This document shows, in pieces, positions 10,870 through 57,840 of a stretch of 64,000 nucleotides of DNA; within the stretch, counting starts at the first letter, position 1, and each line of letters starts with the position of its first letter. The stretch spans positions 52,086 to 116,085 of the forward strand of contig VCJN01002130.1 of the NCBI GenBank assembly GCA_006384855.1. Direction: 5' to 3'. Under the pieces are notes generated by a model, which saw only the letters and a program-made list of their open reading frames with translations, was not told the origin of the DNA and ran no database searches. The stretch comes from Tetraselmis striata (Eukaryota; Chlorophyta; Chlorodendrophyceae; Chlorodendrales; Chlorodendraceae). The translations under genes and the position numbers were made by a program.

Positions 10870-13700
10870 ATGACTGCTGCGGCTTTTTCAGCGGCGTGGC
10901 ACGAGTCCATGTGCCCTCGCCGCCACCTTCATGACGAGGCCGCGCACGCCAAGGAGGCGCACGACCATCACCACCACCACCACGCCGACGGCAACCCCTG
11001 CAAAGCCGACAAGGAGCGCCCCGCGTGCAGCAACCGGGCCTGCAGGGCCTGCAAGCCGGCAACCTGCCCGGTCTGCCTGGTGATGATGTCGATGATGCTG
11101 CTTCTCTCGCCGCCGTCCGCAGCGGCGGCGGCCGGGTGCGGCGGCCACGGCGCTGTGCTCGGCGGTGTCGGCGGCGGCGGTGCGTGCGCGTGTCATCCCG
11201 GCTACGCCCCGGCCGGGGGCACCTGCACCGCGGCGCCCGACGCCCCAGGAAGCTGGCCGCTTCGTTTCGCCGACGGCGCTGAGAGCCCCGAGGAGCATAT
11301 GTGGGAGCTGATGAGCAAGCCCGGCGACGCGCCGCTGGACGCTGACGAGGCGGTCCGGATGATGGACATGATGAGGTAGGAATGCTGCGTGTCCAAACGC
11401 TTTTACAAGCCCCGTAAGCTAACCCCCCACCCCCACTCCCCACCCCCCGCCCACACACACACACCCGTCGGGCCCGTTCCCGCTGATCCCATTTCTGTCG
11501 GTATATTAGATTTCCGATCGGTCGTCGGACCGGTAGCCACTTTCCGCCAACCGGCTCGGGAAGCTCGGGAACTCGCCGAGACCAGGCGTCGATATGCTGC
11601 TATACGCGGTCGCTGTCTGACTTGTGCACGATCGCTGCCGCTTCCAGTGGCATTTACATCGAGGAGGAGCACGACGAGCACGACCACGATGCGCGCGACC
11701 CTGACGAGAACGCCCACGATGAGCACGACCACGATGAGCACGCCCACGAGGAGCCTGGCCATGATGAGGCTGCCCACAATGAGCACGACCACGATGAGCA
11801 CGCCCAGGAGGAGCCTGGCCATGACGAGAACGCCCACGATGAGCACGCCCACGATGAGCTTGACCATGACGAACACGCCCACGATGACCCCGACCACGAT
11901 GAGCACGCTGACGCGGAGTGCAGCGGACACGGGCACCTGCATGACAGTGTGTGCCACTGTGACGATGGCTGGGTCACCAGCAGCGCCAATGCCACGCTAT
12001 GCGTGCCGCCCTCAGCTGGTCGCCGCAGGCTGGCTCAGGAGGTAGACCCCAGCGCCACCTGCCATGTCTCATGCCATACCTCCCTCGATCTAGCATACAT
12101 TATTTCGTGTCTGAGCGCTGTGGATGCGCCCCTTTGCTTCACAGATGTGTGGCGGCCACGGACACGTCTCTGGGAGCAGCTGCCATTGCGAATCTGGTTA
12201 CGAGCAGGACCCTGCCAACGCCTTGAATTGCATTGCCTCCGGCACCTCTGGTGAGCGCAGCGCTGTCCCTCGCCATGCCTGCCCGTGATTGAACCAGTGC
12301 CCTGCGTGTCGCCTCAACCGCTCATTGCGCTGAACCCCCCCCCCCCCCCCCCCCCCGCGTCCTCCTTCGATGCTGCTGCTTCACAGCCCCTGCAGCAGGT
12401 GGCGCTACCCAATGGACCCTCACCGCCGCCGACATCATCGCAGCTGCCGGCGCCAACGGCGTCCTGGCCATGCAGGACCTGAGTAAGGCGCTGCCGCTGA
12501 TTGCCTCGTGCCAGATGGATCCCAGCTGCTCGCTGCAGACTGCGCAAGTGACGTCCTCAGGAGACCCCCACGACCACGCGGGCGAAGGCGAGGGTGTGGC
12601 CATCTGGATGGCGGCGGTAGCAGCCATCAGCTTCTTTGTCATCCCCATTGTCTGCGCAGCCACGCCTTTCTGGATGTCCCGCGTGGTCAGCGATGACACG
12701 TTCACCATGCTGTTCTCCCTGGGCAACTGCTTCTCTGCGGGTCTCATGTTTTCGCTGGGCATCATGCACATCGTGCCCGAGACCATGGAGGCCCAGTATG
12801 CCGGTCCCCATGGACTACCCGCTCAACTTCTTGCTCATCGTCGTCGGCTTCTTCGTCACGCTGTTTCTGGAGCAGATTCCGTCCGCCCACATCAGCAGCC
12901 CGATCCTGCATATGAAGTCCGTGGCGAGCGTTAAGAAGGTGCAGTCCATGATGCGGAGCATGAGGAACACCATTTCGTGCAAAGCACTCTCGCTGTCCAG
13001 CCACGGGCGCTCCAAGAAGGCGTCCAGCAAGGCGGTCGTGGGCCCCTGCTGCGACAGGGAGCACGCTCCCGAGGCGGCCGGCCTGGAGGCTGGTACCCCG
13101 CCGGTACAGGAAGCGTGTGTGAAGGCCTCACCGCCCGGCGCCCTGGAGCGCGCCAACAGCCTCATGCCTGTGTTTGTTTTCTTCGTCGCGAGCCAGTTCC
13201 ACGCGTGCCTGGAGGCCACATTTGTGGGTGTGACCAGCTCCAGCACAGACTTCTGGATCATCTTTGGCGCCGTTGCGGTCCACAAGGCCTTTGTTTCGCT
13301 GACCTTTGGCATGAAGGTCTACACCGTCTGGGGGGTGTCGGATAGCTGCCAGCGCTGGACCCTCGGCGCCATCTCCCTGATTTGGGCCCTGCTTCCCGCG
13401 CTCTGCCTGGTCATCGGCTACGCCGTCTCCGCAAGCATCAACGCCATGGCCCTGCTGGTGCTAACCTCGCTCGCGGCTGGCACGTTCCTGTACATCGGCA
13501 GCTTTGAGATCTTGTCCGAGGAGTTTGAGCATGCGCACACGGCCGGGGAGTGCGCGGACGCCTGCGGTGATCCTCTGGCGCCACCTCAGCAGACGGGCGC
13601 CTGGGGCACCAAGCCCTCGCACCGCTACAACAAGTTCCTGGCCATCATCATCGGTGTGGGAGTTGTGTCTCTCATGGCCCTCGTCCCGCACAAGCACTAA
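10870..13700 (+). CDS. ZIP-family zinc/iron transporter with His-rich, EGF-like N-terminal region (frameshifted)
   Basis: Predicted metal-ion transporter moving Zn2+ or a similar ion into the cytosol across a membrane. Exons: 10870-11375, 11648-12041, 12145-12250, 12387-13700 (about 772 aa if the frameshift is ignored). The last exon carries the ZIP core: several membrane helices from about residue 407, the helix-4 motif HACLEATFVG (about 13197) and the helix-5 motif VHKAFVSLTFG (about 13280), both matching the family's metal site. A long His-rich loop-like segment in exon 2 repeats H-D-E-H units. Three Cys modules of the type CGGHG...C.C..GY...C occur, one in each of the first three exons. 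A hydrophobic stretch (MMSMMLLLSPPSAAAAAG, about 11082) looks like a signal peptide, so translation may start there and not at 10870. One extra C within 12806-12809 shifts the frame between AQYAGP and MDYPLNFLL. The family is certain; the start is not. Confidence 0.88.
11701..11850 (+). repeat. 60-bp coding tandem repeat (His-rich)
   Basis: A 60-bp (20-residue) unit is repeated about 2.5 times in exon 2 of the ZIP gene. It encodes variants of HDEHAHEEPGHDE. The reading frame is kept, so copy number can change without breaking the protein. The His/Asp/Glu content suits metal binding. Confidence 0.85.
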
Positions 13701-14786: not shown

Positions 14787-15951
14787 TCAGCAGTCCCTTG
14801 CGGCTATCCGCATCGCGATGGCGTCCACCTGCGTCCCAATCCTCAGCTCATCCTGCGACAGCTTGTAGCTCTGCGGTCGCGGCACAGCGCGGGGGGCATG
14901 CCGTCAGACACCCCCTCACGTTGGTGTGCCATCAGTGCATGCAACCAGAAGGGCATGTGACATGGCACCTTCTTGATGCCTTTGCTGTCCGATAAGCTGG
15001 GCAGGGTCTCCAGCGGCGCCTCCTTGCCGTCCACGAGCTTCGACACCGCCGCCATCTGCACGCGCACCGGAATGATAAATAAATATACCCCAACGGACGC
15101 ACCAGCAGCGGAGCGCCTGCCCGGGGACTGGTACCTCCTCGTCGGTGGCGTCGAATCGCGCGACGAGCAGGTGCGCGGTGCCCTCTGATACGCCCCAGCG
15201 CTTCAGCGTCTCGGAGATCTAGCAGGGGAAAATGAGGCACGCTCAGGAATGACGTGCGGGATCTCTCGCAGGGGTCGCCGGGGGGAGGAAATCCCGGGAT
15301 ATTGGCAGAGGGCAGCTCGGGGAACGGATGCCAAGTCGAGCAGGCGATGGTGGGCGGGCTGGCAGGCGGGCGCGCCCACGTGCTTGGAGCCCGAGGTGTT
15401 GTACACCAGCTCGGAGTGGAGCGAGCGCGTGAGGATCTTGCCGCGCGCCTCCCCCAGCAGCGCCTTCATGGCCGCCAGGTGCAGCACGAAGAGGTCGGGC
15501 ACCTGGGGGGGCGCATTGAAGGTCAGCTCTAGCAGGGAGTGAGCGCGCTGCCGCGTAGCACGTATGAGTGTGATAACGCTGACATGTGGTAAAGAAAGCC
15601 ATGGCCCACGGTGCATGCAAAGGAGCTGCTCAAGCATGATGGGTGACATAGATTGGTCGGTGGAGGGCTGCCTGACCAGTGCCGCATTGACGAAGGCCGC
15701 CTCCACAGTGTGCGAGTCTGAGATGATGCCCTCCTTGATCTCCCTGGCCGACCATCCGCAACAATGTTCCGTCCGTGAGGGCCGGCTCATTCCAGATGGA
15801 GGCAGGTGCGCAGGTGCGCAAGGCGATGGGGCGGGGGGGGGGGGGGGGGGGGGGGGGGGGTCGTCCCGCACCCGCCGTTCTTCACATCGGTGAACAGCTT
15901 GACGGTCAAGCTCCGGGAGGGGAAGGCTTCAAACTGGAGAGTGGCCGCCAT
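14787..15951 (-). CDS. CGI121: EKC/KEOPS complex subunit Cgi121 (TPRKB-like)
   Basis: Small subunit of the KEOPS complex, which makes the t6A modification on ANN-decoding tRNAs and affects telomeres in yeast. Six minus-strand exons: 15951-15872, 15743-15677, 15502-15380, 15218-15135, 15055-14969, 14870-14787. All join in phase and give 174 aa, the usual family length. It opens with MAATLQFEAFPSRSLTVKLF then TDVKNGG. The hallmark is ILTRSLHSELVYNTSGSKH followed by ISETLKRWGVSEGTAHLLVA (about residues 69-110), where Cgi121 proteins carry a TR-L-H/T-E-x-x-x-N-x-S motif. The C-terminus SYKLSQDELRIGTQVDAIA and the -RIAARDC end also fit. Intron 1 has a 30-base C run on the coding strand. It is divergent from MAK16. 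I am confident of the family. Confidence 0.88.
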
Positions 15952-39949: not shown

Positions 39950-42900
39950 ATGGCGGCACCGTCCGAAGTTCTGGGTCTCTCGCGTAGCAAGCCTCCGGTA
40001 GCGGAGCTGCCTTACCTGAAGCCGGCGCATCAGCAGCTGAAGGCGACGCCACGCTACGAACACGTCCGCATACCGGTGGACGCCGCTCTAGTGACCGAGT
40101 TGAAGGTGCGGGCGATCTCCCAACGGCTGTTGCACAGTTTCACATCGTCACCCGTATCTCGCATATCACACGGGCTCGTCCGGGCCCTGCCTTACAAGAA
40201 AAGATCAGCATTTCGTTCCATTTTTTTATTGATACGCAATATTAGTAGCACTACGCCGAACTTGATGAAGCCGTAAATTTGTCTCGTTCATTACGATCGC
40301 GCTGGCTTCGAAGATCAAATGGTCGTTGTAACCATAGTAGACTTTGTAGACTGTAATATTATTCCTACACAGTCTACGAAGTTTGCTGATTGCTCGCGGA
40401 GGTGGTCTTCCGATCCATTCCGTTCAGCGACGCTAACGTCTTGGGAAGCAGATGCGACGAATGAAGCGACGTCGAAATAACGTCGAAACGGGCTATTGAA
40501 GTACCACTCTCGGAATAGACGTTCAGCAGTGCGACCGAGGCTACTCGTGTCCGGCGACGTGTGAATTCCATCACCACCGGACTGCGACGGTTTGCGACGA
40601 TACACACGATGTGCCCGTGAATGAAGTAGCCGCCCTCCGTCAGACTGCGCTGTTCGGATTCGGCATCGCAATCACCTGGCTCGTCCAAGCTTGAATTCAC
40701 TTTTGCCAGTCGCGTCGTCTCTCAAGTGTCGAGTTCCTATTGCATGAAGCTCTGCTTTTTTTTGCCGGTCAGTAGCAGCAGCACATGAATAGCAAGGGAC
40801 ATGCCAATGCAGTCGAAAGCGACGAGTATTTATTCATCTGAGCATAATCTTCCCTGTCGCCGAAAGTGTTATTATCGAGTGTAGGCAAACGCACGTGTAG
40901 TGTGTGCATCGAGTGTCTATCGATACAGTTCGGTCGTCGGTCGAGTGCCGGCGGCGTACCTCGTCCTCCTGTATGAGCAATCCTGTCAGCCGACGGTTTG
41001 CCGAGACCATCTATAAGCATGCATATAGGGATCGCGATACGGCCAGATCGAACCATTTGATCTACAACCGGCCGACTACTAAAAGCACCTTGTCTTCCAT
41101 CTTCGCTATCGCAGGCCCGTTGCAAGAAGGCGGGATCGGGTTCGGAGGCAGCCTTCCTCGCCGCATTGCAAACCTATGTCTTCCGCGTCACGGGCGTCGC
41201 CGATCTTTTATTCCTTCACGTGTCGGCTACTGCTGAGGCAGATATCCTGCGCGTGGTGGTGTCCCCTGACGATAGCCTGTCAGGTAAAATGCTGTGGCAA
41301 CTCCGGCATCTCGCAGTGCGCGGCCTTTGTCGATTACCTGCTTGGTCGATTTGATAATTGCTGCTATCAAATTATCGACAGTCTTGTGATACTGTCAAAC
41401 CGTTACATCAAATCGAGATGATCATATGCTATCAAACCGTAATTAATGCGACATTACTACAAACCTCAATTCAGATTGATAAAATGTTACCACATGTCGT
41501 TGGATGCTCCCCGGGCAGTCTTGGCACGTTACACTGTTCCAAAAGTGTCGGAGTCTAGTACCCAGAGCGAAGTCGAAGAGATGATTACAGCTTCTTTAAT
41601 TCTTCATAGTCATTTGCTTTTTCCTGCAGCATAGCTTCTGCCTGTGAATCTCGGTGCTCCGAAATCCCGCGAGGTATTACTCGAGACTGCATGATACTGT
41701 TGCAAATCACGCAGTGTTATTATCATTGACCGTTGCGTTTGTGCGACTCATAATTTCACGTAGTACTACATTTTTTGAAAGAAAAGGATGTTACAATAAT
41801 GAGCTGTCTCACATGCTGAAGTGCGGGGAGGGGGTAAACTTACCTGTAATGGGGCCCTATTGTAGGTGGCGATTTGGGTGTAGATAGTTGCAAATAGTGC
41901 ATGAAGCAAACCTTGCTGGCCCTGGTTTTGCCCGGTTCTGTCCTGCAGACGATGCTGGCTGCCCAAAGCCACAGCCCCTGTCAGCTCAGCGTACTTGCCG
42001 GCTGGACATGCGGGCTGATGAGGCAGCCCAGCCATGACTGTGAGGTAGCCCTGTAGCGCAGGTAGAGATGACAGTTTCAGTAGTTTTCCCGCCTTCTCTG
42101 CCGGCATATTTGACATGCTTTTGATTCTCATTTGTTCGTCGCGTGTTGCTGGTTTTGGTACCTATGGCGGCAAGAAATTATGGTCTTTCGTACGTAGCTC
42201 GCTGTGCGGAAACAACACGCGATGTTTGACCCGGTCAATGCATGGATAAAAACTTGTTGCGAAACTATGCCTAATCATAAGAGCAGAATGCGAAGTGGGA
42301 TTTAGTGAGGGATTCGCATGCAGACCCCCTCTTACCTCAGCTGCCTGGATGGACCGAGCAACTGTGGTAAATGGTTGTCTCGAGGTGCCAAAGGGAAGTG
42401 ATGCAGTATTCACACAATGATGGCGATATTTCGTAGTACCGAAATGTCGTTTGCCTGATCTTTTGCGCGGGTGGGGATGTGCGGGTGGCAGCGTGAACTG
42501 TTGTGCGAGTCTCACCCGTATCAATTCCAAGTGGCGTGTCTCCCTTCAGCACAAGTGTCTGGTGGTCGGACTGATGTAGCCCTCTCCGGAAATGATGCAC
42601 CGCTGGAATGCAGATGTTCTCGATGCAGCTGCCCAGGCGCTGTCAACCGTCCGCCAGAAGCGCAGCCAGCACAGCCTTGCAGATTCCGTGGCTGCCCTTG
42701 AGGCCGCTCAGGTGGATGCTCCTTGCGCTGTCATCTCCTTCTCAGCTGACAAGGACGCTGCCATCAAGGCAGCCTCAGCTTTGCCCTCCAAGAGGTATGC
42801 CGTGACGGCCGGTGGTAATGGTGCCAACACGCACTATGGACTACTGCTACATTTCCTCGTGATTGGTCCATACTGAGGCGTCCTCCGCTTTCGCTGTCCC

Positions 42901-45900
42901 GGCAGGTACGGTTGGTGCCTGAACGTCGACCTGGACGCGAAGGAAGTCGGCCTGTCATACGACGCCAATCGCTACTTTCACGAGTTCTCCTCCACTCCCG
43001 AGGCGGTCGCCAACCATCTGCACCGCATCCTGGACCTAATTTGCCACGCGCCGCACGAGACCCTCATGCGTACGGACATCCTGCAGGTGCGCGGCCGCAC
43101 CCCCCCTGACATGGCACTGTGATTCTCTGGATCCATGCCAACCACCCCTTGATTTGCCCATGGCCACCTTCTCGCGCTGACCTCTCCTGATGTCCGTGTC
43201 CCTGGCAGGCAAAGGAGCGGCACCAGCTGCTAGAGGAGTGGAATGTGACGGATGTGGCGTACCCCAATGCCACCATTCACGAGCTGGTGGAGCGCTCCGC
43301 ACGCCTGCACCCCGCCAAGACTGCAATCATCTTTGAGGACAAACCACAGAGTTACAGTGAGCTTGACACCGCCGCAAACAAGCTGGCCCACTACCTTGTG
43401 CAGGCGGGCGTGGCGCGTGGCGCACGCGTGGGGGTGTACCTCCACCGCAGCACAGAGCTGCTGGTCGCGCTCGTGGCGGTGCTCAAGGCTGGCGCCGTGT
43501 ACGTGCCGCTGGACCCGCTGTACCCCAAGGACCGCGTTGCGGTCATGCTGCAGGACTCCAAGGCCGCGGCAGTGGTGACAGACGCTAACCTGGCTGACGG
43601 CCTCACTGGCGTCCTGCCATCCTGCACCAAGGTGCGCCACGGAATGTCTCAATTCCCCCGATGTTTTTCACTGACTTGCGTGCTGCTCCTGGCGGTGCTT
43701 GTTGCGGCATGTCATTGCAACTGGGTGCTGACGTAACATACCTTGTTATACCTTGTCATACCTTGACATACCTTGTCACAAAATACCTTTTATTGTAAGC
43801 CTGCGATTGGGCTCACTGGTAACCCATCTAGCATTTGCTATACTTCCGCTGTAGTGTTGTCAACATTCCACCCAAAGTCGCGCAACTACTTGCCAAAGTT
43901 GCCAAAGTCGCTGCTTCACCATCCGTCCGGGAAACGTCTCACACTAAATATCATTCGCAAGTTTGTAGCCACCATTGATTATTGATAGCTCTCCCAAGTT
44001 TGAATAGACAACTCAGCAGTCTATGAGGATGGAAGTTCGGCAAATGGAATAGGAATATATTGGATAATGTATTGTCCGCTTTCTCTCGCTGTATAGTTTG
44101 GATTATTTGGAAGAATCTGATGGATACATCTCAGTAATACATGGATGTGTAATGATGCTCAACGATAAGACAACATCAATCATATGGGCGCCGTACATCT
44201 GTAATGCGGATATAGTGCGTATACACACTGGCAAGGCCCATGTAGTGTGGTAAGGATATTTTTTTGATGAGGATTGCATGCATGAAGGAAGACACGATCT
44301 TTACAATTGCTTCTAAGCAATCTATTAAAATGGAACTTCGGCAAGAATAACAAGATGCGAGCATCCTTGTGAACTAGCTGCCATTCCGTTCCAGCTCATA
44401 TAGCCCATTGATCGTGCCCCCCTTTTGGCTTGGCTGCCGGCAGGTGGTTGCGATGGATGCGTCGGCGTCTGCCATCGCCGCCATGCCCGCCGTCAAGCCG
44501 CCCTCCGCAGCAGCCGCCTCCCCAAAGGACCTGGCCTACACTATCTTCACCTCCGGCTCAACCGGGCGGCCGAAGGGCGTGTCCATCACGCACGCGGCGC
44601 TGGTCAACCTGCTGCACCACTTTCACCGCCAGCTGAACGTCGGCGCCAAGGACGTCTTGGTGGCCATCACCACCGTCTGCTTCGACATCGCGGGGCTGGA
44701 GCTGTTCATGCCACTCAAGGCGGGCGCCACGCTGGTGATGGCCTCACGCGACCAGGCGGCAGACGCCAACATGCTGGCGGACCTGCTGGACGCCAGTGGT
44801 GCCACGCTCATGCAGGCGACTCCCGCCACGTGGCGCAACCTCATCGCGGCCGGGTGGCCGGGGAAGCCCCGCAGCCTGCGCGGCCTCTGCGGCGGCGAGG
44901 CGCTCCCGATCGATCTCATGCGCGGTCTGCTGCCGCAGCGCCTGAAGGAGCTGTGGAACGTGTACGGGCCCACAGAGACCACGGTGTGGTCCACTGCCGC
45001 TTGCCTCAAGCAGGGCACGGAGACCGTCCACATCGGCAAGCCCATTGCCAACACGCAGGTGTATGTGCTGGACGCCAACCTCAACCCGCTGCCCGTCGGC
45101 ATCCCCGGGGAGCTGTACATTGCCGGCGACGGCGTGTCCCCCGGGTACCTGGAGCGCCCGGACCTCACCGCCGAGGTGAGCTGCTCTGCTGGGGAGCCAT
45201 GCGCACCGGCCATGCTACAAGTGAAGCTCACCCTCTGTAACCTTGCCATTGCTTCCCGACTCGAGGATGGAAATGCTCTGTTTACCCCCCCCCCCCCCCC
45301 CCCCCCCCCCCGAGAGAGAGAGAGAGCACTGCATTTATCCGAAACCGCGGCATTAATCTACTAATGTGTCGGTGGCAATAAATTGCATGGTGGTGCCCGG
45401 CCGTGTTTTGCCACCCTTCGAGCGGTTTTTCCCCTAGTTCTATTTCATTGTGGTATCATCCATCTCTCACCTTCTTATCACTGCTGATGTTTTATCGTGA
45501 TAGATTGTTTGCACGTGACAGAAAGGACTACGTAATCCTTCGTTTCTGCACTACATCCTGTGCTGACAAACACCAGTAGTGTACTTGTGCGTACCAATGC
45601 TACTAGTACTATGTACCAGAGTACTCGGAGTGTACTCTTGCGGGCCAATACGCGATTGAGTGGAGTAATATCATCTTATCATCGTGCCTTGCTCCGCATC
45701 CCTGCATCGCTATCTTCTCTCAAACAGTGCAGGTATTGTTCTCCCAATTAGATGGGCAGTACTAATTCAAGTAGTGAACTCAGTACTTTCAAAATCAAAT
45801 CGCAATATGACTACGATGTATCTGTCAGTTTTCTTGAACGAATCCAAATTACCATCAGCTCATTTTCCATTTCTATTTCTATTCCTATCGCCGAACTCCC

Positions 45901-46551
45901 ATCATAAATGACTGGGTAGTCCACACGACTATTGCGGTCTCTCGGTTTGGGGGGGGCATGCTGGTTCAGACGAGAGCCCCGAAACCGCTGCAAAATGTAC
46001 CAACCCGTGGCTGGTCACAGCTATTTGGCGCAGCACGTGGACGAGTATCCGGCATGCCCTGTGCACTGGGTGCATATCTACTGTTCTAACCCTAACTACT
46101 AACAACTAGAACCCTTAATATAATGTAGTGTGTGTACTATAGTTTCGGGGTTTGTGTTAGGGTTGTAGAGTGAACCTGCACCGGAAAAAACTCTAATAAA
46201 CTGTATTAAGGAAGTTACAACAGCCAAAAACTGTAATGAACTGTAGTTGACGGGACCGCGATATCGCCACGCAGAATCTGCGACTTCACGGCACAGAAAT
46301 ACCCAGCTATTTTGGTGACTCGTGAACCTAATTAAACATTCCGGGATGCCTCAATGACTGCATGCCTCAACTGCGAGCTGACCTCCCTCCCTGTCCCACT
46401 TTCCCCTTCGCATGTGACGCAGAGGTTTGTGGCCAACCCGTTCAAGAACAGCGGGCGCATGTACCGCACTGGCGACCTGTGCCGCTGGCGCAGCGACGGC
46501 ATCCTCGAGTGCCTCGGCCGGCTGGACCACCAGGTCAAGGTCCGCGGCTTC

Positions 46552-46584
<33 letters not shown>

Positions 46585-49500
46585 GGCACGCACCCGCGCG
46601 TTGCGCACGTGGTGGTGGAGGCGCGGAACGTGGGCGTCTCGACAGAGGGCGAGAAGCGGCTCGTGGCGTACGTGGTGCCCAATGCGGCAGACTCAGACGA
46701 CGGCAGTGCGGGCGACATGGACCCCGCGGAGGAGGAGAAGAAGCAGCAGGAGGAGGAGATCGACAGTGAGTCGCCGTTTGCGAAGGTGTGTTTCGCTATC
46801 ACTCTCCTGGCATGGGCGCCCGAGGTCGCGTCATGCGCTCTGCACGCGTTTGTGCATGTTGGCGTGGCCTCACGCGCTGATTTTGTCGCTGCCACTGCGT
46901 GCGCACCCCCTCGGCCGCTCCCCCTCCAGCCGGTGGCCTCGTCGGCGCAGGACCTGGATGAGGTGGCCAAGTGGGGCGCCATCTATGAGGAGGCGTACGC
47001 CAGCCAGAACGCCGTTAACGAGGACCCCACGCTCAACTTCAGCGGCTACGACAACAGCTACACGCCGCGCGTGCCGCACCGCGCGGAGGTGGTGCGCGAG
47101 TGGGTGGAGACCACGTGCGCGCGATTGGCCGCCCTCGCGCCGCGCCGCGCGCTGGAGATGGGCGCGGGCAACGGCATGATGCTGCTGCGCACCGCGCGGC
47201 TGCCGGCCTGCGAGCGCTACATCGGCTGCGACCTCAGCGCCCACAGTGTGAACTACGTGGAGCAGGTGTGCCCTCCCCCATTCGCAGCGCACGGCGAGCA
47301 AGGTCAATCATGGGTTTCAGGTTTAGGTTATTGGTCTCGAGTTTAGAGTTTAAACTCCCTGAAACTCCTGAAACTGGTGACCCATTGTGATGAATATTGG
47401 TATTAACCAGGACGCCTGGCCGGTATGACAGCGGTGCTCATGACATGACACGTGACATGTGCCACTTCCGACAATCGTTATCGCCGACAATAGTGATGCG
47501 CGCTACCGGTCCGCTGACGGGTGCTGACTGGCGCTGTGTGTGCCGCCGCTGCTCAGGTGCTCAAACAACCCAACTTCGCGGATATCGCCCCCAAGGTGGC
47601 GCTCTTCACGGCGGGCGCGCACGAGAGCGGCCGCTTTGCGGCCGAGCGCCTGGACACCGTCATCTGCAACGGCGTCAGCATGTACTTCCCCTCCGCGGCG
47701 TACCTGCTGGAGGTGGTGTCCAGCGCGCTGGCGGCTCTGCAGCCCGGCGGCACCTTCTTCCTCGGCGACGTGCGCAACGCGTGCCTGCTGCAGCACTTCC
47801 ACGCCAGCGTCGCGTACTTCCAGGCCAAGTCCGCCGGCGAGCCGGGCCGCCCCGCGGTGGCGCTGTCCTCTGCGGTGGAGAAGGCCATCCGCTTCGAGAA
47901 GGAGCTGCTGGTGGACCCCGCGCTCTTCCTCGCGCTGCCGCACCTGCTCCCCGGCCTGGACAGCGTGCGCCTGGACATGAAGCGCGGCTGGTTCCACTCC
48001 GAGTTCTCCTGCTTCCGCTACGACGTCACCTTCGTCAAGGCCGGTGGCCGCCCCAGCGGCGCGCCAGCCCCCGCGAGCTACGACCTGCAGCCCTTCGCCG
48101 GCCTTGACTCGCTGCGCGCAGAGCTGTCCGCCGGGCCGCCGGTCCTCGCGGTTGCGGACATGCTGGATGCGCGTGTGGCGTCGGACGAGGTGGTGGCCGG
48201 GCTGCTGCTCGACCCGCTGGCTCGCCCCGCCACGGTGGGGGAGCTCGTCGCGGCGGTGAGCGAGGTGGAGGCCGGCCTGGAGCCCACCGACCCCGAGGCC
48301 GTGTACAGCCTGGGCGAGGAGCTGGGCTACGAGGTGCAGCTGATCTGGCAGCCGGGGAGCCCGACGCGCTTCGACGCGCTGTTTGTGGCTGCCGGCACAC
48401 CGGCCGGCGCCTACCTCCCCCTGGCCATGGTCACCTATGCGGCCGCGGGCGCGGTGCCGGCGGCGGCGCCCGCCACGCCCGGCTTCTGGGAGGCCTTCAC
48501 CAACAAGAGCGGCAACTACGCGCCACAGGGCCGCCGCGACGTGCTGTCCGCGGCGGACGTCGCCAGCGTGCGCACCCTCGCGCGCCGCACGCTGCCAGAG
48601 TACATGGTGCCCTCCGTGTACGTCAGCCTCACGGCGCTGCCCAAGACGGACAACGGCAAGGTGGACCGCAAGCAGCTGCCGGAGCCGACGCCTGCTGACC
48701 TCGAGGCCAGCGGGCAGCGTGACTCCCCGTTCGAGGCGCCGGCTGGCAGGATGGAGGAGGTGCGCGCTGGAGCGCCTCCCCTTTTCCCCTTTCTTGCCAT
48801 GTATTGTGCCCTCACCCTTCAAACCAGCGTTATCTCTCTCTATCAGGCAGCGACGTGGCGCTGACCTGTGAGGAGATAAACCTCCAACCCTCTGCCAACC
48901 CTACCTGTACCCTAAACCTGGTTTATGCCGCCGCTGACCATGTGCTGTGGGCCGCGCACCAGGAGCTGGCGGCGATGTGGTCGGAGCTGCTGATGACGCC
49001 GGAGATCTCAGCCGCGGACTGCTTCTTCCGCCTCGGCGGCCACTCCCTGCTGGCGATGCAGCTGGTGCACCGCGTGAAGGAGCTGACGGGCGGGGTGCAG
49101 CTGCGCCTCGCGGACGTGGTGGAGCACAGCGTGCTGCGCGACCTCGCGGCGCACGTGGAGCGCCACGTCGCCCTCTCGCGCTCGCCGTCTGCGATGAGCG
49201 TCGGCCTGCCCGCCTCCACCGCCGCCTCGGACCTCCGCATCGTGAGCACCGACGAGATGCCGTTTGACGTGGACGAGGTGAGGCGCAATGATCCTGGAGT
49301 AGCTCTGCTGTGACCTACCAGTCACCGGCTTGTGCAGCAATAGTAAGTACTGTCGCCACTCATATTAGACCTTGATGATAATGACCGAGTACCCACCCCC
49401 CCCCCCCAAACAACCACAGGTGCCCCACACCTGGATCCCCATGAGCGATGGCACCAAGCTGGCGGCGCGGGTGTGGCTGCCCGTCGTGCGCGGCGGCGGC

Positions 49501-51992
49501 CGGCAGCACCGGGGCCCCGTGGCGGTGGAGGTGCTGCCGTACCGCAAGGGCGACGGCAGCGCGGAGGTGGACGCGCTCGTGTGGCCCTACCTCGCCGGCC
49601 ACGGCGTCGCGGGCGTGCGCGTGGACTGCCGCGGCTCCGGCGATAGCGGCGGCCTCTTTGACGACGAGTACAGCGGCTTGCAGCAGTCCGATGCGCGCAC
49701 AGTGGTGGAGTGGGCGGCGGCGCAGTCGTGGAGCAGCGGCCACGTGCTCGCGATGGGCTGCTCCTGGGGCGGCATCACCGCGCTGCAGGTGCGCCCTACC
49801 CGGGCCGCTGCCTGCATGGCTCGTCAACTTAAAGGCGGAATTGGAGTATCTCAACGACATTCGGAATTTAGGGTCTGTAGGGTTTTGAATCAGACGTTGC
49901 TGCGGAGGGCTCTACTGCCTCGTGACTGGTGTTTAGGGTTCAGGGAAGGGTGGGCAATGGAGCTGTGACGCTGACAATCGTGACGTGGGTTGTCCTGCAG
50001 GTGGCGGCCGCGGGGCATCCCTCGCTGGTGGGCGCCGTGGCGGTGTGCGCCACCGATGCGCGCTACGAGGACGACATGCACTACCAGGGCGGCTGCCTGC
50101 TGTCTGAGAACCTGTCCTGGGGCTCCTGGCTCATGCACGTGCTCAGCCAGCCGCCGGACCCAACCGCGCTGGGATCCGCCGCACAGCCCGGCGCCTGGCG
50201 CGAGCAGTGGCTGGCGCGCCTGTCGGCGCTGGAGCCGCTGGCGGCCAAGTGGATGCGCCACCCCTCGCGCGACGACCCGTACTGGGCGGTCGGCAGCGCG
50301 CGCCCGCACGCGCGCGACATCCGCGTCCCGCTGCTCCTGCTGGGCGGCACCCACGCGGGCGGCTACATCAATTCGGTCGCTGCGCTGGCGGCGGAGGGCG
50401 CCACGTCGGCGCCGGTCACCGCGCTCGTGGGCCCGTGGAGCCACAACTACCCGCACATCAGCCCAAACGGCCCCCAGGTGCGGCGCCCGCACCTACCCAC
50501 GGTCGTGTTTTGGGGAGTTTATGGGCGCCGCAGTCTTCTACGCAATGTTGTTCTATGCAACATAGTTACATTGCTTAAGCAGTTAGTACTATTATTATTA
50601 ACACAGTGTTAGCAATTTATTATTGTTGTTATGATCCGCCGGGTGATGGTGCCCTCCCCCTGACGTGATGGTGGGCCGTGTGCAACCCGCGCCTTTCCGC
50701 AGGTGGGCTTCCTGCAGCTGCTGCTGCGCTGGCTGTCGGAGCAGCTGCCCTCTCCCGACCTCATCCGGCAGCCGCCCACCGAGTCCGCCCCGCCGCCGGC
50801 GCGCTTCACCGCCTTCGTGGCGCGCCCGCCTTCGCGGCAGCCGCCCACCGGCGAGCCCAGCGCGGCGGCGGAGGGCGAGTGGCTGGCGGCCGGCAGCCTG
50901 GAGGAGCTGGCGGCGCTGGCGCCAGCGGCGCGCCTGTCGCTGCTGCCGGGCGGCCGCCTCGGCGACCCGGGTACCGACCACGACACAGCCATCCAGGACT
51001 CTGGCACGGTGGCTGTCCCTGGCTCGTGCGCTGAGGCCGCCGCGGCGCTGGCGGCGGGCGAGGACGACCCTGCCACCCTGAACCCCGCGGGGCTGGCCGC
51101 CGGCGCATGGTTCACCTTCGGCGTCGGCCCCGACCTCCCGCTGGAGCAGACCGCCGATGACAGTGCATCCGCGCTGTGGGACAGCGCCCCGCTGCCGGGC
51201 GCCGCGCTGCTGCTGGGCACCCCCGTCGCGCGCCTCGCGCTGGCCAGCGCTCCGCCTGGCGCCCAGCTGGCGGTGCGCCTCTGCGCGGTGTCGCCCTACG
51301 GCGTGTCCACCCGCCTCGCGTTCGGCCTCGCGAAGGTCGAGGCGGCGGCGGAGGTGGTGGAGGTCAGCCTGGGCTGGACGGCGGCCAAGGTGCCGGCACG
51401 CTTCAGCCTGCGCCTCGCGGTCAGCGCCGGCTGCTGGCCCATGTTGGCGGCGCCGGGGCCCGCCGCCCGCCCCTCTATCCGCCTGGCCGGCTCCAGCCTG
51501 GAGCTGCCGATGGGCGACGCAGGAGGCGAGCGCCTGGAGGCCGCGCGCGCCGCGGTGGCACTCCCGCCCGCCGTCCACCTGCCCGCGCCGCTCCTCACCA
51601 CGGCGCTGCGCCCCGGCGCTGCCAGCCGCACCGTGGCGCTGGACCGCGTGGGCCGCGCCCTCACCGTGCGCCGCCTCGACGACCGTGGGCGCCGCCGCCT
51701 GGAGTCGGCCGGCGGCCTGCAGGTGGAGAGCGGCCAGGAGGAGAGCTACGAGCTGGGCGCCAGCCTGGCTGGCGCCCCGCGGTCCCGCCACGCTGTGACG
51801 CACCGCACCAAGCTCAGCCGCCCCGCGGCCGGCGGTGGCGACGACGCCCCCTGGGTGGCCGAGATGCGCCTGGCGGCCAGCCTGACCACCTCCGCCGGCG
51901 GCGAAGCCAAGCTGACAACCACCGTGACGGCGCTCGAGGACGGCGTCCCAATCTTCTCCCGCAGCTGGGCCGACGATCTGCTCCTGCGCTGA
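39950..51992 (+). CDS. Single-module nonribosomal peptide synthetase: partial C, A interrupted by N-methyltransferase, carrier, CocE/NonD hydrolase
   Basis: Thirteen exons join in phase (2064 aa): 39950-40105, 41115-41283, 42614-42794, 42906-43086, 43209-43631, 44444-45175, 46423-46785, 46930-47265, 47557-48759, 48963-49277, 49420-49788, 50001-50477, 50703-51992. Residues 1-229 match only the C-terminal lobe of a condensation domain (no HHxxxDG). Adenylation: [14 protein letters not shown] (402), FDIAGLELF (450), NVYGPTE (542), [26 protein letters not shown]. An N-methyltransferase follows (ALEMGAGNG, 809; [10 protein letters not shown]), then A10 ([13 protein letters not shown]1215 in NGKVDRK). 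Carrier: [11 protein letters not shown]1276. The hydrolase (1354-2064) has GCSWGG (S1468), [16 protein letters not shown] and GPWSHNYPH. It should activate, N-methylate and tether an amino acid; release by the hydrolase is inferred. The ATG at 39950 aligns inside the domain, so exons may be missing upstream. Confidence 0.9.
45284..45324. repeat. Poly-C run followed by (GA)n in synthetase intron 6
   Basis: About 26 C followed by about 6 GA units, about 110 bp after the exon 6 donor. Confidence 0.9.
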
Positions 51993-53529
51993 AGCTGCGC
52001 CCCGCAGCAAAGGACCCTCCCCCCCCTTCCCCCAGCAGCCGCCGCACCCTCTGGCCCGCGCTGCATTGTTTCTCCCTCCTCAAACCTGGCCGACACGGGC
52101 ACTGTCCTGCGCTCCCTCAACCTGTCATCGAGCCAGTAGACCAGGACGACAGCAACAGTCTAGCAGCGACATCAAGGCTTAACCCCCCCCCCCCCCCCCC
52201 CCCCCTCGCTCCTCCCCCCGTTGTTTCCAATACTCTTTTTGGCCGAGCCGCTCTGTCGCAGCAGGCTCGTCGCTTCTCTGTTGACCGCCCCCCTGGGCTG
52301 CCTATGGCGGTCAGGCGGAGGGATTTTGCTGCCCGCAGTGCCCCGTGCTGTGGGACCCCCTCCCCTGCCGACTTTTTCTGGTCATCAGTTTTCCCATTCC
52401 GCGCCGGCCGGGCGCTGTCAAGAAGCCCCCCCCCCCCCCCAATCCGTAGTGCTACCTACCTGCTTCCTGCCCTCACTTCTCTCGCCAAGACCAATGTAAA
52501 CAGTCTGTTGCTCTCTCCTAGTGGTCCCCTGTTGTAACACATCTGCTGGTCCACAGAATTGGGTTTGCCATCAAGATGAGAGGAATGGTGAACTGTATCT
52601 TCCGCAGTGCATTGGTGATAAATAAGGATTGTGCTCTGTCCATTTCACAGATACTTCATCGAAACATAAGTGACAAACATTAACCCAAATAAATTGTGCC
52701 TTCGTACACTGAAAAACAAGTGTATAAGGACTGCAGGAGCGTCTATACCGAGTGTCCTATTTGTCCACCATGAGAAATACTACATTGAATGATTTCCTAC
52801 GTTGGCCTCGTCTGTTCGCTCGGTGGAGCGGTGGTCTCATACTCGGGAGGTCCCTGGTTCGATTCCCGGCTCTGTCATTTTAGTTTGGGCAATATCGTCC
52901 CGCCGTGTCCTGGGTTTACGCGGTTGATGCTTTGGGCCTTCAAGGTTTGAATGAGGCGACGGTCTAATGCCAAACTTATGACTGCAGTTGGCGCAAGAGT
53001 GTTGGGGCGGCTGCGGCCCATGCCCAGGGCGAACTTATATTTTTCTACATTGATTTCACCGCCCTGCTCTGGTTGCAATCTGGCAGCAGCAAGACAGAAA
53101 CAAACAGGTAGTGTACAAGTGAATTGTAGTCCCTACTACAATGTGCAAATTTTCAGCACTTTTGGAATATACCAGCGCGCGTCCATTTGTGGGAAAAATA
53201 TAGAACAGGTCAGGCGGTGGACTCGCAGTCACCCGCGGTCACAGCAGCAATATCCGGCGGACTGTGACACTCACCGGCCCACCACCTTTCGCAGCTCACT
53301 GCAGTGCAGTGCAATTAGTGAATGCTTTTCCCGAGGCGCGTATCGCTCCAGGGGCAGGTTTGTTGAAACACCCGAATAGTGGTGATCAGTTCCAGTTACA
53401 ATGAAAAACGTTGGAATTAACCCGGTTCCTGTGGCACTGCGCCAAAGGGACCTTCCAACAGCACCCGATGGACACGATAACGGTCGGAGGATTCGCTGGC
53501 CGCCGCCAGAGCTAAATACAGAGACTCAG
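51993..53529. other. Intergenic 3' of the synthetase
   Basis: It holds the synthetase 3' flank with poly-C runs at about 52183-52205 and 52428-52440, then a tRNA-like segment (next entry). The rest is unassigned. Confidence 0.5.
52809..52882 (+). other. tRNA-like / SINE-like RNA polymerase III promoter segment
   Basis: The sequence has an A-box-like tcgctcggtgga and a perfect B-box ggttcgattcc (52856-52866). It also has a Met-like anticodon loop ctcatac (CAT), the variable loop aggtc and a tttt stop at 52878. The D-loop is too short, the anticodon stem has several mismatches, and the acceptor arms do not pair. I read it as a decayed tRNA-Met or the head of a tRNA-derived SINE, not a working tRNA gene. 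Confidence 0.45.
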
Positions 53530-53664: not shown

Positions 53665-56600
53665 TTAGCAGGTTGGTCCAAAGCCGCTCCCTGACGAGCA
53701 GCTGGCGCTCATGTCCTTGATGATCTTGAAGCTGTCCACTTCGTCGCCGTCCCCATCAATGCAGTTTGCCTGCAGCTCGTTGCCTGTGATGATGATGGTT
53801 GTAGTGCACTTTTCGTAGATGGAAACGTCATGGGCATCATGGTTGAGGCTGGCCGAGCTCCTCTTGGAGGCGCTGCCCGTCACCACGTGCACGGTGCCAG
53901 ACTCGCCGCATCGCTTCTTGCGGTACACAGTCCCCTTGCCGTCGCCCTCCTGGACAATATGACTGTCTCTCAGCTTGTCGCTCTCCTCGTAGTGGCCGTT
54001 GATGAGGTGCGAGCGTTCGTAGCTGTGCGAGTGCCCGGTGAGGTGCACATCCACGCCGTGCTTGTCCATGATGGGCACCACTTTCTCGCGCACGTCGATG
54101 AGAACCCCTTGGCTGTCCGAGTTGTGGCTGCCGCGCGAGTACGGCGGGAAGTGGTTGCCAGCCAGAATCCAGTCGGTCTGTCCGCTGGCGCGTGCAGCGG
54201 CCAAGTCCTCGTCGATCCAGTCGAGCAGGTCGTCGTCCTCCTCCCAGTCCTTGAAGCTCAGGTCCATCATGATGATATGCACACGGCCGTGCTGGTAACT
54301 GTACGACCCCTTGTAGGAGCTGCGCGTGGGGTAGCCGGGCTTGAAGAGCTCAAAGTACGGCCCAGTCTCCTTATCGCCCTTCGCGGTGTATGCATCGTGA
54401 TTGCCAAGGATGGGGTAGAGCCCTACTTTCGCGAACTGGCCGCAGTAGTAGTCGAAAAACTTCTCGCGATACTCGTCGAATGTGCCGGACTTGTAAGCAT
54501 TGTCGCCCAACGCGAAAGTGCCGTCCCAGCGGCCGCCGAAAAAGTCCATTGCCGCATCACGATTGTCAGCCTGCGTTGGGCACACATAGATCACTGTGGC
54601 GAGTGCATTCCATGCGCAGAACAACATTCTGGGGCACTGCATACCGATTCGATACACTGTCTCAATTATAGTCTCGCAGGCACTTCTCTTATCACGAGCA
54701 TTAGCAGAACTACTGGTCGAAGTACTACTCGAGACAGCATCCCAACCAATACCCGTTCTCAGGCTACCTGTACCTGTACCCGTAATACATTCACAACGAA
54801 TAATTGGCAGCGCACCTGGTCACTGCTGGCGACACCAGAGTCTCCGAGCCACCAGCTGCGGAACGTGAGGCCACACTTGCCGGGCACTGGCGCCGTGGTG
54901 AACTCCAGCGAAAGGCCGCTGCAGCCGGTCTCGGCAGCACGCGCAACGCCGGTCGGTGGACGAGTGTATTCGTCGATCCAGCCGGGGTCGCCCGGGCGGG
55001 TGATCGGCGGCAGGGGCACGGGCTCCTCGCCAGGGCATGCCGCGGGGAGGGTGGCGATCGATTCGACCTCGTCTTCCTCGAATATCTCGTCGTCGCCTCC
55101 GTTGGCCCTCTCGCGGTTTTCGAGGTACTCCGCGCGGCAGGCGAAGTCCAGAGGAGGGTCGGCCGCCCCGCCAGACCGGCTGCTCCGCGAGCCACCGCAA
55201 TACGATAGCGACTGGTGCGAAGCGCAGTCCCAGGCATCCTCAAGGTCCGTTGTGAGCACCTTGTACTCGTACGCCGTCTCGGGCGACAGGCCGACCGCCT
55301 GGGCGGCGTGCAGCTCCGTCTCGTCGTCGTCCCAGTCGGCGGACCAGGTTGCCGAGGAGCCGGCAGGGCGCCAGCACAGGCGCGTGGTGGCCTTGTCGTC
55401 GGTCTCCCAGCGCACGGTGGCGCTGGACTCTTCCACGCCCATGACGTACGGCGCGATGGTGAGGCACACCTCGCCGCTCTTGGGGTTGGGGTTTGGCGGG
55501 TGCGGGGTGGCGCCGCTGGGGGGCGACACTGGCGGCCCGGCAGCGGGAGTGGGGGCAGGCGTGGGCCTTGCGGTGAAGGGGTCCGGTTGGGGCTGCTGCT
55601 GTGTAGGGCTTGGTGTCAGAGGCTGGCCGTCAGCGCCATAGGGGCACCAACGCCCCTGGCAGAGCGCGGAACAATGCGACTCACGCGTGCTGCAGACGGG
55701 GCTGACCTGCGTGACGGTGGGGCAGGCAGCGGCATGCGTGCAGAAGCCGGTGGTGGGGCACCATGTCCCCGTGCAGCCCAGGACGCAGGCGCCCTCGTCG
55801 GCGTTGCAGCCAAGGCCGCCCTGTGGGAAGCCGCTGGAGCAGCTGCTGTCACTGAGCGAGCAGTAGCCGGGTCGTCCGGGTGCGGCTGTGGGCGCCGGAG
55901 CGCTGACTGGTCCGCTCTGCCACTCCCATTGCCCTGAGTTGAAGTTGAACACCCATCGTCCGGTTTGGACGGGTGCAGGGGTGGGCGCCGGAGTGTTGGC
56001 AGGCCCGCTCTCCCACACCCAACCAATGCTTGGGTAAAACACCCATTGCCCAGCAGCGGCTCGGCTTGCCCCTCCGGAGCGTGACATCTCGGGCCGCCCC
56101 CAATCCTCCAGCCAGGCAGGCAATGGCGCCGAGCCGCCCGATCTGCTGGCGACCCCATCTGCCGCAAACAGGACATCTGGTGCCGGCATGCCGCTGGGCT
56201 TCACTTCGGCCTTGGCCAGCTCAGGAGGGAGCGCAGCACCGGAGGACAGCCAGCGCTCGGCCTCTTGGCCATCGGACGGGCTGCAGAAGAAGGAGACGGA
56301 GGAGGAAGACGCCACAAACATGACGGCGCCGCCAGGCGTGAAGTCGATCGCCCTGGGCGCTTCCGGCGTGGCCAGCTGGAGCTTTCCCACCACCTGTCCG
56401 GTGCCGCTGATCTCGTACACGGCTCCGTCGCACGACACGCACAGGGCGAAGAGGGAGCCGCTCTCGGGGGCGAAGTAGATGCTGTCGAAGCGGACGGTGC
56501 GGGCGGCCTTGGTGTCCGACTGCAACGCCAGGGAGGAGGTGCCATCTTGCCGCACCTGGTGCAATAAAACACGGCTTTCAGTACGAATGAAAACATATCT

Positions 56601-57840
56601 AATTGATATACGGATATATCTTTTCATATTAAATGGTATGTACCGCCGGTGAATACAATGCATATTCCGATATTATCTTGAGTTACATGTTGCTGCAAAT
56701 GTCTCTCCCAAAAGTCGTCCGATTGTCAGCAACTAGCAGGCACTTGTCGACACGGGTCAAAACAACGGTGGAAGACATTGAGCCCTGACATGCACATGGT
56801 TGTGAAGGGAGGGTCGGCTGATGGGCAGGCTGTTGCTAGGGCGACTGAGCAGCACTATTAGCGAGGACTATTTCCTGGTCACAGGGGCATTTGTACTCAC
56901 GTGCCACAGCGGAGTCTGCGCCTCGGGGGAGGGGAACAGGTCGTAAGAGGCGAGAACACTGGCGTGGCCGCGGAGAGCGGTGAAGGCGGTGCCGCCGTCT
57001 GCCAGGCTCGGGAAGCTGCCGACGACGCGGAAGGGCTCGTTGGGTGTCGCGTCCGCGAAGTCTAGAACGCTGAACTGGGGGCCGCTCGAGTTCCCGCTGG
57101 TCGAGTGCGTCACGATCAGCGTGTTGCCGCCGGCCCACGCCACGCCAGCCGGACCTGCGACGGTTTACCACGTTTTTCGTCAGATAACCAGGAGGTACAG
57201 CGGGATGGCGCGGGCAACATAAGTAATAAACGTAAAACGTTCACGGACCCGACACGACCGACGCGATACTGGGCGGAGATGTGGGGTGGAACCGGTGCGA
57301 GAGGGTGATACGAGGGGTGGATGCAAGTTTTTCGTCGCGGGGGGAGACCTCCAGGGAGCCCAGCTTCCACGAAGCTGCTGGCTGGGATGGTCGCCAGAAG
57401 CGCGCCCTGCGAGGCAACGCGGTAAAAACTGCAGTAAAAACGGGCCGCGCCGGCGGAAGCACAGGTTCTGCACAAGGTACTGCACTGCCCTGTAGCGGTG
57501 TTGTAGCACCGACATGGCTCGCGTTACCCGCCGCGCCCGCTCGTCCAGGCGCAGCACCCAATACACGCAGCGGCAAAGCGGTGGAGGGAGCAGCATCAAG
57601 TATTCTCACCTCCAGGCCGTGCTGGCGGAGGTCGCCTCCGGCTGTCGTCACCCATAGCCCATTGGCAGTTGGGTCAAACGAAAAGTCGAGCAGATCCGGC
57701 GCGCCGGTCAGCTGCACTGTCCCGCACGACGCCCTGACGCCCAAATCGTCCCACTCCGCCAGCGCGCAGCCGCAGCAGACCAGCAGGGCGAGTACGCTCG
57801 CGGCGGCCCGCCGCTGCACCATGGCAAACTCAGGTTTCAT
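53665..57840 (-). CDS. Secreted multidomain purple-acid-phosphatase-like protein
   Basis: Predicted extracellular metallophosphatase releasing phosphate from esters. Minus-strand exons: 57840-57610, 57406-57349, 57154-56901, 56555-54816, 54570-53665; all in phase, 1062 aa. A signal peptide follows the second Met (MVQRRAAASVLALLVCCGCA). Residues 25-330 look like a beta-propeller fragment (GLWVTTAGG, HASVLASYDL, GAVYEISGTGQVVGKL). Next are two Trp-rich repeats (QWVFYPSIGWVWESGP and GRWVFNFNSGQWEWQSGP), two Cys-rich repeats (CTGTWCP, CQGRWCP) and a Pro/Thr linker. A fibronectin-III-like domain (SATVRWETDDKATTRLCW) leads into the catalytic domain: WLGDSG (about 749), GDNAY (783), GNHD (817), AGNHFPPYS and GHSHSYER (940). 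These are the five metal-ligand motifs of the family. The start could be M1 or M7. Substrate unknown. Confidence 0.88.

Follow-up and report, generated by a model that had tools for sequence, protein, structure and literature searches.

What does an intron-rich gene resembling a bacterial nonribosomal peptide synthetase (NRPS) make in a green alga? The gene in question lies on the forward strand of a 64,000-nucleotide stretch of the Tetraselmis striata genome (the window; contig VCJN01002130.1 of assembly GCA_006384855.1, positions 52,086 to 116,085), and all coordinates given below are positions of the window. An earlier note on this DNA had described the gene as a peptide synthetase module laid out like the N-methylating modules of cyanobacteria. 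Our analysis leads to a richer picture: the gene encodes a conserved algal synthetase in which a glycine-type adenylation (A) domain interrupted by an N-methyltransferase (nMT), a peptidyl carrier protein (PCP) and a peptidase S15-like domain are joined in one chain, and two of its active sites, those of the methyltransferase (MT) and the S15-like domain, are remodelled.

The reading frame was rebuilt exon by exon from the window. Thirteen exons (39950-40105, 41115-41283, 42614-42794, 42906-43086, 43209-43631, 44444-45175, 46423-46785, 46930-47265, 47557-48759, 48963-49277, 49420-49788, 50001-50477 and 50703-51992, with the stop codon at 51990-51992; all on the plus strand) join in phase over positions 39950-51992, as had been proposed, and 12/12 introns, of 111-1330 bases, have GT-AG borders. 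The spliced frame of 6195 nt including the stop encodes 2064 amino acids without internal stops, and its GC content at third codon positions is 0.90. The rebuilt protein (P0001) is identical, letter for letter, to the T. striata gene model jgi/Tetstr1/435762/TSEL_024655.t1 in EukProt, so the gene model pre-existed as annotation. Besides this exact model, the protein search that had been suggested with the earlier note returned algal homologues of the same architecture. Alignment with the homologue P0002 from Tetraselmis sp. GSL018 (61% identical) places nine of the 12 junctions inside gap-free windows of 30 columns, with three gap columns at the junction of exons 2 and 3 and one at that of exons 7 and 8. 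The junction of exons 1 and 2 is left uncovered because P0002 starts further along; only the Pyramimonas protein P0004 covers it, with 2 gap columns and 8/30 identities, and it is therefore the least certain join. Runs of at least 15 cytosines, which are possible weak points of the assembly, were seen in intron 6 (45285-45311, followed by an AG repeat) and downstream of the gene (52183-52205 and 52426-52440).

Three protein searches, two of them with about 8000 candidates scored and the best 120 listed, yielded a family of at least 30 proteins including P0001, all family counts being lower bounds. AMP-binding and PF02129 occur together in 29 of them, and the remaining protein, P0135, ends before the S15 region. 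Seven of the 29 listed PF02129-bearing proteins are eukaryotic. Six of these have named sources, partly by label, namely T. striata, Tetraselmis sp. GSL018, Pyramimonas (taxid 36882), the streptophyte Mesostigma viride (label Mesvir1), the chlorophyte Pycnococcus provasolii and the pelagophyte Aureococcus anophagefferens, and the seventh, P0122, comes from EukProt. The other 22 are metagenome proteins without a named source; none of the 29 carries a bacterial source name, and a prokaryotic carrier is possible among the 22. At source, the Pycnococcus protein is annotated as ‘chondramide synthase’ and the Aureococcus protein as ‘phosphopantetheine binding protein’. The third search, with the S15 part of P0001 alone, returned only three proteins, P0121 being the one new name. 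The fixed architecture, the presence in both green algae and a pelagophyte and the size of the metagenome clusters, with up to 350 sequences in one of them (P0132), make it improbable that the family is an oddity.

From the N terminus onwards, the predicted order is half a condensation (C) domain, A(Gly), nMT, PCP and S15, which points to a self-contained enzyme and not to an extending module. The adenylation core with motifs A1-A8 is encoded at 43209..46785 (exons 5-7) and matches PF00501 (amino acids 257-606, 1.6e-88) and TIGR01733, the latter with 442 bits against a cut-off of 317, so that the amino-acid-adenylation signature is present. Motif A8 lies at 46516..46551 (amino acids 646-657) and motif A10, NGKVDRK, at 48652..48672 (amino acids 1213-1219), with the first half of AMP-binding_C matched by Pfam at amino acids 663-703; the corresponding family forms, for A10 NGK[VI]DR, occur in 30/30 proteins. 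The methyltransferase and its C-terminal subdomain occupy 46930..48583 (exon 8 and the first part of exon 9, the end being approximate), and the methyltransferase Pfam models match at amino acids 799-930, which bears out the earlier placement of this domain between A8 and A10. The PCP follows at 48963..49157 (exon 10, amino acids 1249-1313; PF00550, 1.1e-10), with the phosphopantetheine serine Ser1276 at 49044-49046 in a GG[HNQ]SL motif common to 30/30 family proteins. Behind it lie the peptidase S15/CocE-like catalytic domain (49447..50450, exons 11-12, amino acids 1363-1626), identified by PF02129 (3.5e-43) and by alignments with bacterial hydrolases, and the end of the S15 region with a PepX_C-like part and a C-terminal extension (50703..51992, exon 13; PF08530 at amino acids 1763-1883, 3.9e-6). 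Both PF02129 and PF08530 are above cut-off in P0001, as in an S15 domain with a C-terminal non-catalytic domain; TIGR00976 is above cut-off for P0144 and P0223 and was not among the best 25 of 103 rows for P0001. The thioesterase domain PF00975 was not found in the Pfam scan of P0001. Patterns for A3, A8, A10, the S-adenosylmethionine (SAM) motif, MT motifs II and III and the carrier serine, all written to the family's own forms, match 30/30 proteins, and the pattern for the S15 nucleophile matches 29/30, the exception being P0135, which is without S15.

The remnant of the C-terminal half of a condensation domain (39950..43086, exons 1-4, about amino acids 1-229) was recognized through partial PF00668 matches in three homologues. 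Tested as separate pieces, the N termini of P0075 and P0014 match profile positions 195-343 and 297-455, respectively, of a total of 456, both above cut-off, and that of P0004 matches positions 208-277 with 28.9 bits, below the cut-off of 30.6. No Pfam match was obtained for the 228 residues ahead of the A domain in P0001, nor was PF00668 matched in P0144, P0130 and P0223, which were scanned whole. The HHxxxD motif was found upstream of the A domain in 0/30 family proteins, three of which (P0147, P0166 and P0171) have just 0-16 amino acids there. Because only half a C domain is present and HHxxxD is missing, the protein is classed as NRPS-like and not as an elongating NRPS of the C-A-PCP type. 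The earlier description as one module is thus accurate for the nMT-interrupted A domain, but the carrier, the inactive half condensation domain and the S15-like domain, all missing from that description, point to a self-contained synthetase instead of a peptide-building module.

The adenylation pocket carries the code DILQCGVVW in P0001, and 29/30 family proteins have the glycine-type form DILQ[CV]GV[VI]W. Among the nine-position codes extracted, DILQCGVIW and DILQVGVVW were each found in 11 proteins, DILQCGVVW in seven and DVLQSGEVY in one (P0122). The assignment to glycine refers to DILQLGLIWK, which we take to be the glycine code; a literature search for this string returned nothing. The A10 lysine is present. 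Codes starting with DILQ were found in 84 of the 485 A domains retrieved, a set biased towards the query, and six of these 84 are interrupted by an MT. The best solved matches of the A domain are to linear gramicidin synthase A and are uninformative on the substrate. The other motifs of P0122 are intact, and its deviating code possibly reflects a natural change of specificity.

The first of the two remodelled sites is that of the methyltransferase. The best solved match to this domain is 5wmm, listed as ‘NRPS’ (E 2.9e-32), and the SAM motif is retained in the family. Three positions deviate in all of its members: Tyr775, Gly886 and Met889 are present in 30/30 family proteins, where the other MTs have Trp (80/81), Ser (79/81) and Gln (81/81), respectively. 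The same Tyr, Gly and Met are found in P0187, a JGI metagenome protein of 1239 amino acids that is cut at its N terminus. Its A-MT-PCP order is followed by a thioesterase (PF00975, 5e-31), and a standard release domain therefore occupies the place of S15 there. The pocket of P0187 was read by eye as DILQSGLIW; automatic extraction yielded no code.

The second remodelled site is that of the S15-like domain. Alignment with bacterial hydrolases locates the nucleophile Ser1468 at 49762-49764, His1624 at 50442-50444 and, in the place of the catalytic Asp, Gly1596 at 50358-50360. Ser1468 and His1624 are conserved in 28/28 fused proteins, that is, the 30 family members minus P0075, which ends before the Asp/His region, and P0135. 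Ser, Asp and His are all present in 6/6 free bacterial hydrolases, five of which were taken from 15 listed ones among 268 matching plasmid records; the sixth is L001, from a Desulfuromonadales metagenome-assembled genome. In contrast to the bacterial G[GA]W-ADxY (6/6, with GAW in L005), 28/28 fused proteins have a one-residue insertion and Gly instead of Asp. Judged by its motif and by the triad of cocaine esterase, the replaced Asp is presumably the catalytic one, and plain hydrolysis is therefore not assured. No replacement acid stands out in the alignment of the 28 fused and six bacterial proteins. The sole acid conserved in the family and not common to most bacteria is Asp1962 near the C terminus (27/28 with one gap; 2/6 bacteria). 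In P0144, P0160, P0175 and P0223, an Asp stands three positions past the Gly, at a site that is Asn in the others. The fused proteins agree with the six bacterial hydrolases in the further polar residues that are conserved in the catalytic domain. L001 aligns with amino acids 1333-2057 (35% over 753 columns) with similar length and order, CocE/NonD hydrolases on alphaproteobacterial plasmids reach 34-36% over the S15 region, and the best solved matches of the S15 part of P0004 are cocaine esterase structures (E 2.7e-13). By its sequence, the domain is S15-derived, but with its triad incomplete it should not be filed as an ordinary hydrolase.

Phylogenies of the A and MT domains, run separately as the earlier note had advised, and a third one of the S15 region bear on the origin of the enzyme. 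The A-domain tree (21/30 family members, six glycine-type A domains with an MT, 30 other glycine-type ones taken one per protein and 22 other MT-linked ones; midpoint root) unites the family on a branch with support 100/99, inside a moderately supported group (88/93) that otherwise holds only glycine-type, bacterial A domains. Modules of Nostoc (P0145), Moorena (P0148) and an Oculatellaceae cyanobacterium (P0053) fall elsewhere. In the MT tree (23/30 family members and the best 55 of 82 other MTs; bootstrap unsettled and some rows of deviating composition), one side of a branch with 97/96 holds the family, and a branch with 100/100 unites it with P0187, away from the 54 remaining MTs. A single branch with 100/100 separates 22 of the 29 fused S15 domains from the six bacterial ones. 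The trees are compatible with a single fusion event, and the grouping of Aureococcus with Pycnococcus in all three suggests, on thin sampling, a transfer between algae. No bacterial ancestor with the fused architecture was found in one scan of genome contigs, made with the S15 alignment only and with one peptide pattern, which gave three loci; the only strong one, L001, is a free-standing hydrolase, and 0/7 of the neighbouring open reading frames (ORFs) scanned have an NRPS or SAM-methyltransferase match. An ATP-grasp gene (L001:2773-4182, minus strand) is divergent from this bacterial CocE-like hydrolase gene. A viral origin was also considered and was rejected after two scans of viral contigs, with the MT and S15 alignments, gave no relatives. 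Accordingly, the cyanobacterial layout and origin proposed earlier are not upheld, the A domain standing apart from the three cyanobacterial modules sampled and the MT from the 54 others; N-methylating modules in general share this layout, as the match to 5wmm illustrates. The idea of an old, domesticated transfer probably does hold for this intron-rich gene, whose bacterial-type A-nMT part is common to green algae and a pelagophyte.

The domain order, the intact A, MT and PCP motifs, the glycine-type pocket, the conserved Ser and His and the missing condensation motif can all be read from the sequence. We consider there to be about an even chance that the protein is a self-contained, non-peptide-forming NRPS-like enzyme that activates glycine, N-methylates it on the carrier and releases it as sarcosine, N,N-dimethylglycine or glycine betaine. 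The A domain would adenylate glycine, which would then be bound as a thioester to the carrier domain of the same chain, and the inserted methyltransferase would use SAM to methylate the amino nitrogen once or several times; domain identity and intact motifs argue for these three steps. Ser1468 would subsequently take over the acyl group, and release would most simply be to water. This last step is the weak point of the scheme because the Asp is lost. We infer the substrate, the number of methyl groups, the acceptor at release and the biological role, which may be that of an osmolyte or lie in one-carbon metabolism. In line with such an enzyme, the family groups with glycine-type A domains, and its nearest MT relative in the retrieved set, P0187, ends in a thioesterase. 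According to PMC9695272, every compound found in the bacterium studied there, with the exception of gonyol, is also present in axenic T. striata, and sarcosine and glycine betaine are on that list. By its title, as given in the reference lists of PMC7024275 and PMC3721227, a study by Dickson and Kirst (1986) concerns glycine betaine and homarine in the osmoacclimation of Platymonas subcordiformis, a synonym of Tetraselmis subcordiformis according to a synonymy look-up. This metabolite link is independent but circumstantial.

Several points weigh against release of methylated glycine by this enzyme. Apart from the altered S15 site and the different code of P0122, the sarcosine and glycine betaine of T. 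striata may come from other routes. Enzymes of the GSMT/SDMT type methylate free glycine and need neither ATP nor a carrier, so that the synthetase would be a costly route to a simple osmolyte. Typical nMT domains of NRPSs methylate only once, and Mesostigma is a freshwater alga, which weakens a role restricted to osmolytes. As a speculative extension only, and one that we think rather improbable, marine algae may have a carrier-based line to glycine betaine, or to the mono- and dimethylated glycines that precede it, with up to three methylations by the remodelled MT and release by the Asp-less S15-derived domain.

Given the altered release domain, we consider three outcomes: the likeliest is that a Ser-His dyad hydrolyses the thioester, acyl transfer comes next, and a hand-over in trans comes last. 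In the second, which is possible though clearly less probable than release as a free acid, the Ser-His pair would use the N-methylated glycine to acylate a small alcohol or amine, and the product would be an ester or amide. The uniform loss of Asp by insertion and Gly (28/28, with Asp in 6/6 bacterial proteins), while Ser, His and the other polar residues are kept, fits such a change of acceptor, and S15 alpha-amino-acid ester hydrolases can transfer aminoacyl groups. However, neither an acceptor site nor a partner gene was identified, the same place in P0187 is taken by an ordinary thioesterase, and by general chemistry a thioester is activated enough for hydrolysis by a Ser-His dyad. The loss of Asp and the reduced condensation domain could also mean that the S15 domain is catalytically inactive and that the carrier hands N-methylglycine in trans to another synthetase as the starter of a peptide pathway. 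We regard this as unlikely, since Ser and His persist in 28/28 proteins and the rest of the site is conserved, unlike in a decaying domain, and NRPSs with an intact C domain were counted in 7/32 algal species in the available part of PMC4661987.

Still less credible is a peptide synthetase module of cyanobacterial type. The nMT, inserted between A8 and A10, and the stretch behind it do match NRPS N-methylating modules, but the condensation motif was not found, both trees place the domains away from the candidates sampled (the three cyanobacterial A domains and all 54 MTs besides P0187), and Trp, Ser and Gln of the other MTs (80, 79 and 81 of 81) are replaced in every family member. Contamination or a wrong joining of neighbouring genes, finally, is hardly conceivable: the junction of exons 1 and 2 is weakly backed and the gene is known here from genomic sequence, yet 12 GT-AG introns and the match to the existing gene model speak for a genuine gene, P0002 (61%) and P0004 (44%) carry the same domains in one chain, and metagenome proteins predicted as single frames show the same domain order. 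Release of free N-methylated glycine by the enzyme itself stays the reading we prefer.

If sarcosine, dimethylglycine or glycine betaine is indeed made, a specific gene is linked to compounds reported in T. striata, and the origin of methylated glycine in marine algae becomes directly testable. The family would possibly represent a way of making methylated glycines, among them the osmolyte glycine betaine, that has gone unrecognized. Were glycine betaine itself the product of such an assembly line, this major osmolyte of the ocean would have a source distinct from both choline oxidation and the methylation of free glycine. The architecture, which is fixed across the family and has both active sites remodelled together, also offers a natural case of a hydrolase that was recruited behind a carrier domain and altered at its catalytic acid.

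Elsewhere in the window, two ORFs of 330 and 634 amino acids on the minus strand (53665-56663) match the calcineurin-like phosphoesterase family PF00149 (5.1e-13) and, weakly and below cut-off, the purple acid phosphatase N-terminal domain PF16656 (9.5e-5); they probably belong to a single gene of the purple acid phosphatase type that is convergent to the synthetase gene. An ORF at 12636-13700 (plus strand) matches the ZIP zinc transporter family PF02535 (3.9e-23), and another at 15203-15871 (minus strand) matches CGI-121, a kinase binding protein (PF08617, 1.2e-8).

A 2015 survey (PMC4661987) in which Aureococcus is named reports that algae rarely have nonribosomal synthetases and that the products of most of these are unknown. 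The algal NRPSs of that survey likewise have A and PCP domains, but only proteins with A, PCP and an HHxxxD-bearing C domain were counted (PMC4661987). The present family would fail this rule because it lacks an HHxxxD condensation domain, and it was probably overlooked through the requirement for a complete C domain. The architecture was not described in the titles and abstract beginnings of the literature searched, in which subscription journals and preprints are thinly covered, and the available part of PMC8269262 names no genus of the family.

With the nMT-interrupted A domains of NRPS N-methylating modules such as 5wmm, the algal enzymes share the MT family, its insertion between A8 and A10, the SAM motif and motifs II and III. 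They differ in being single modules fused to S15, without the condensation motif and with Tyr775, Gly886 and Met889. Modules that convert glycine to sarcosine occur in bacterial synthetases, for example actinomycin synthetase. Such modules, six A domains of which were retrieved, combine a glycine-type code with an inserted nMT as the family does, but lie in longer synthetases, whereas the algal enzyme stands alone with its own release domain. The hydrolase and C-terminal regions of CocE/NonD (S15) hydrolases align with the algal S15 part, which retains Ser and His, has an inserted residue and Gly in the place of Asp, and is fused behind a carrier. P0187 has the same A-MT-PCP order, the nearest MT in the tree, a glycine-type code as read by eye and the same three remodelled residues, and differs in using a type I thioesterase (PF00975) for release.

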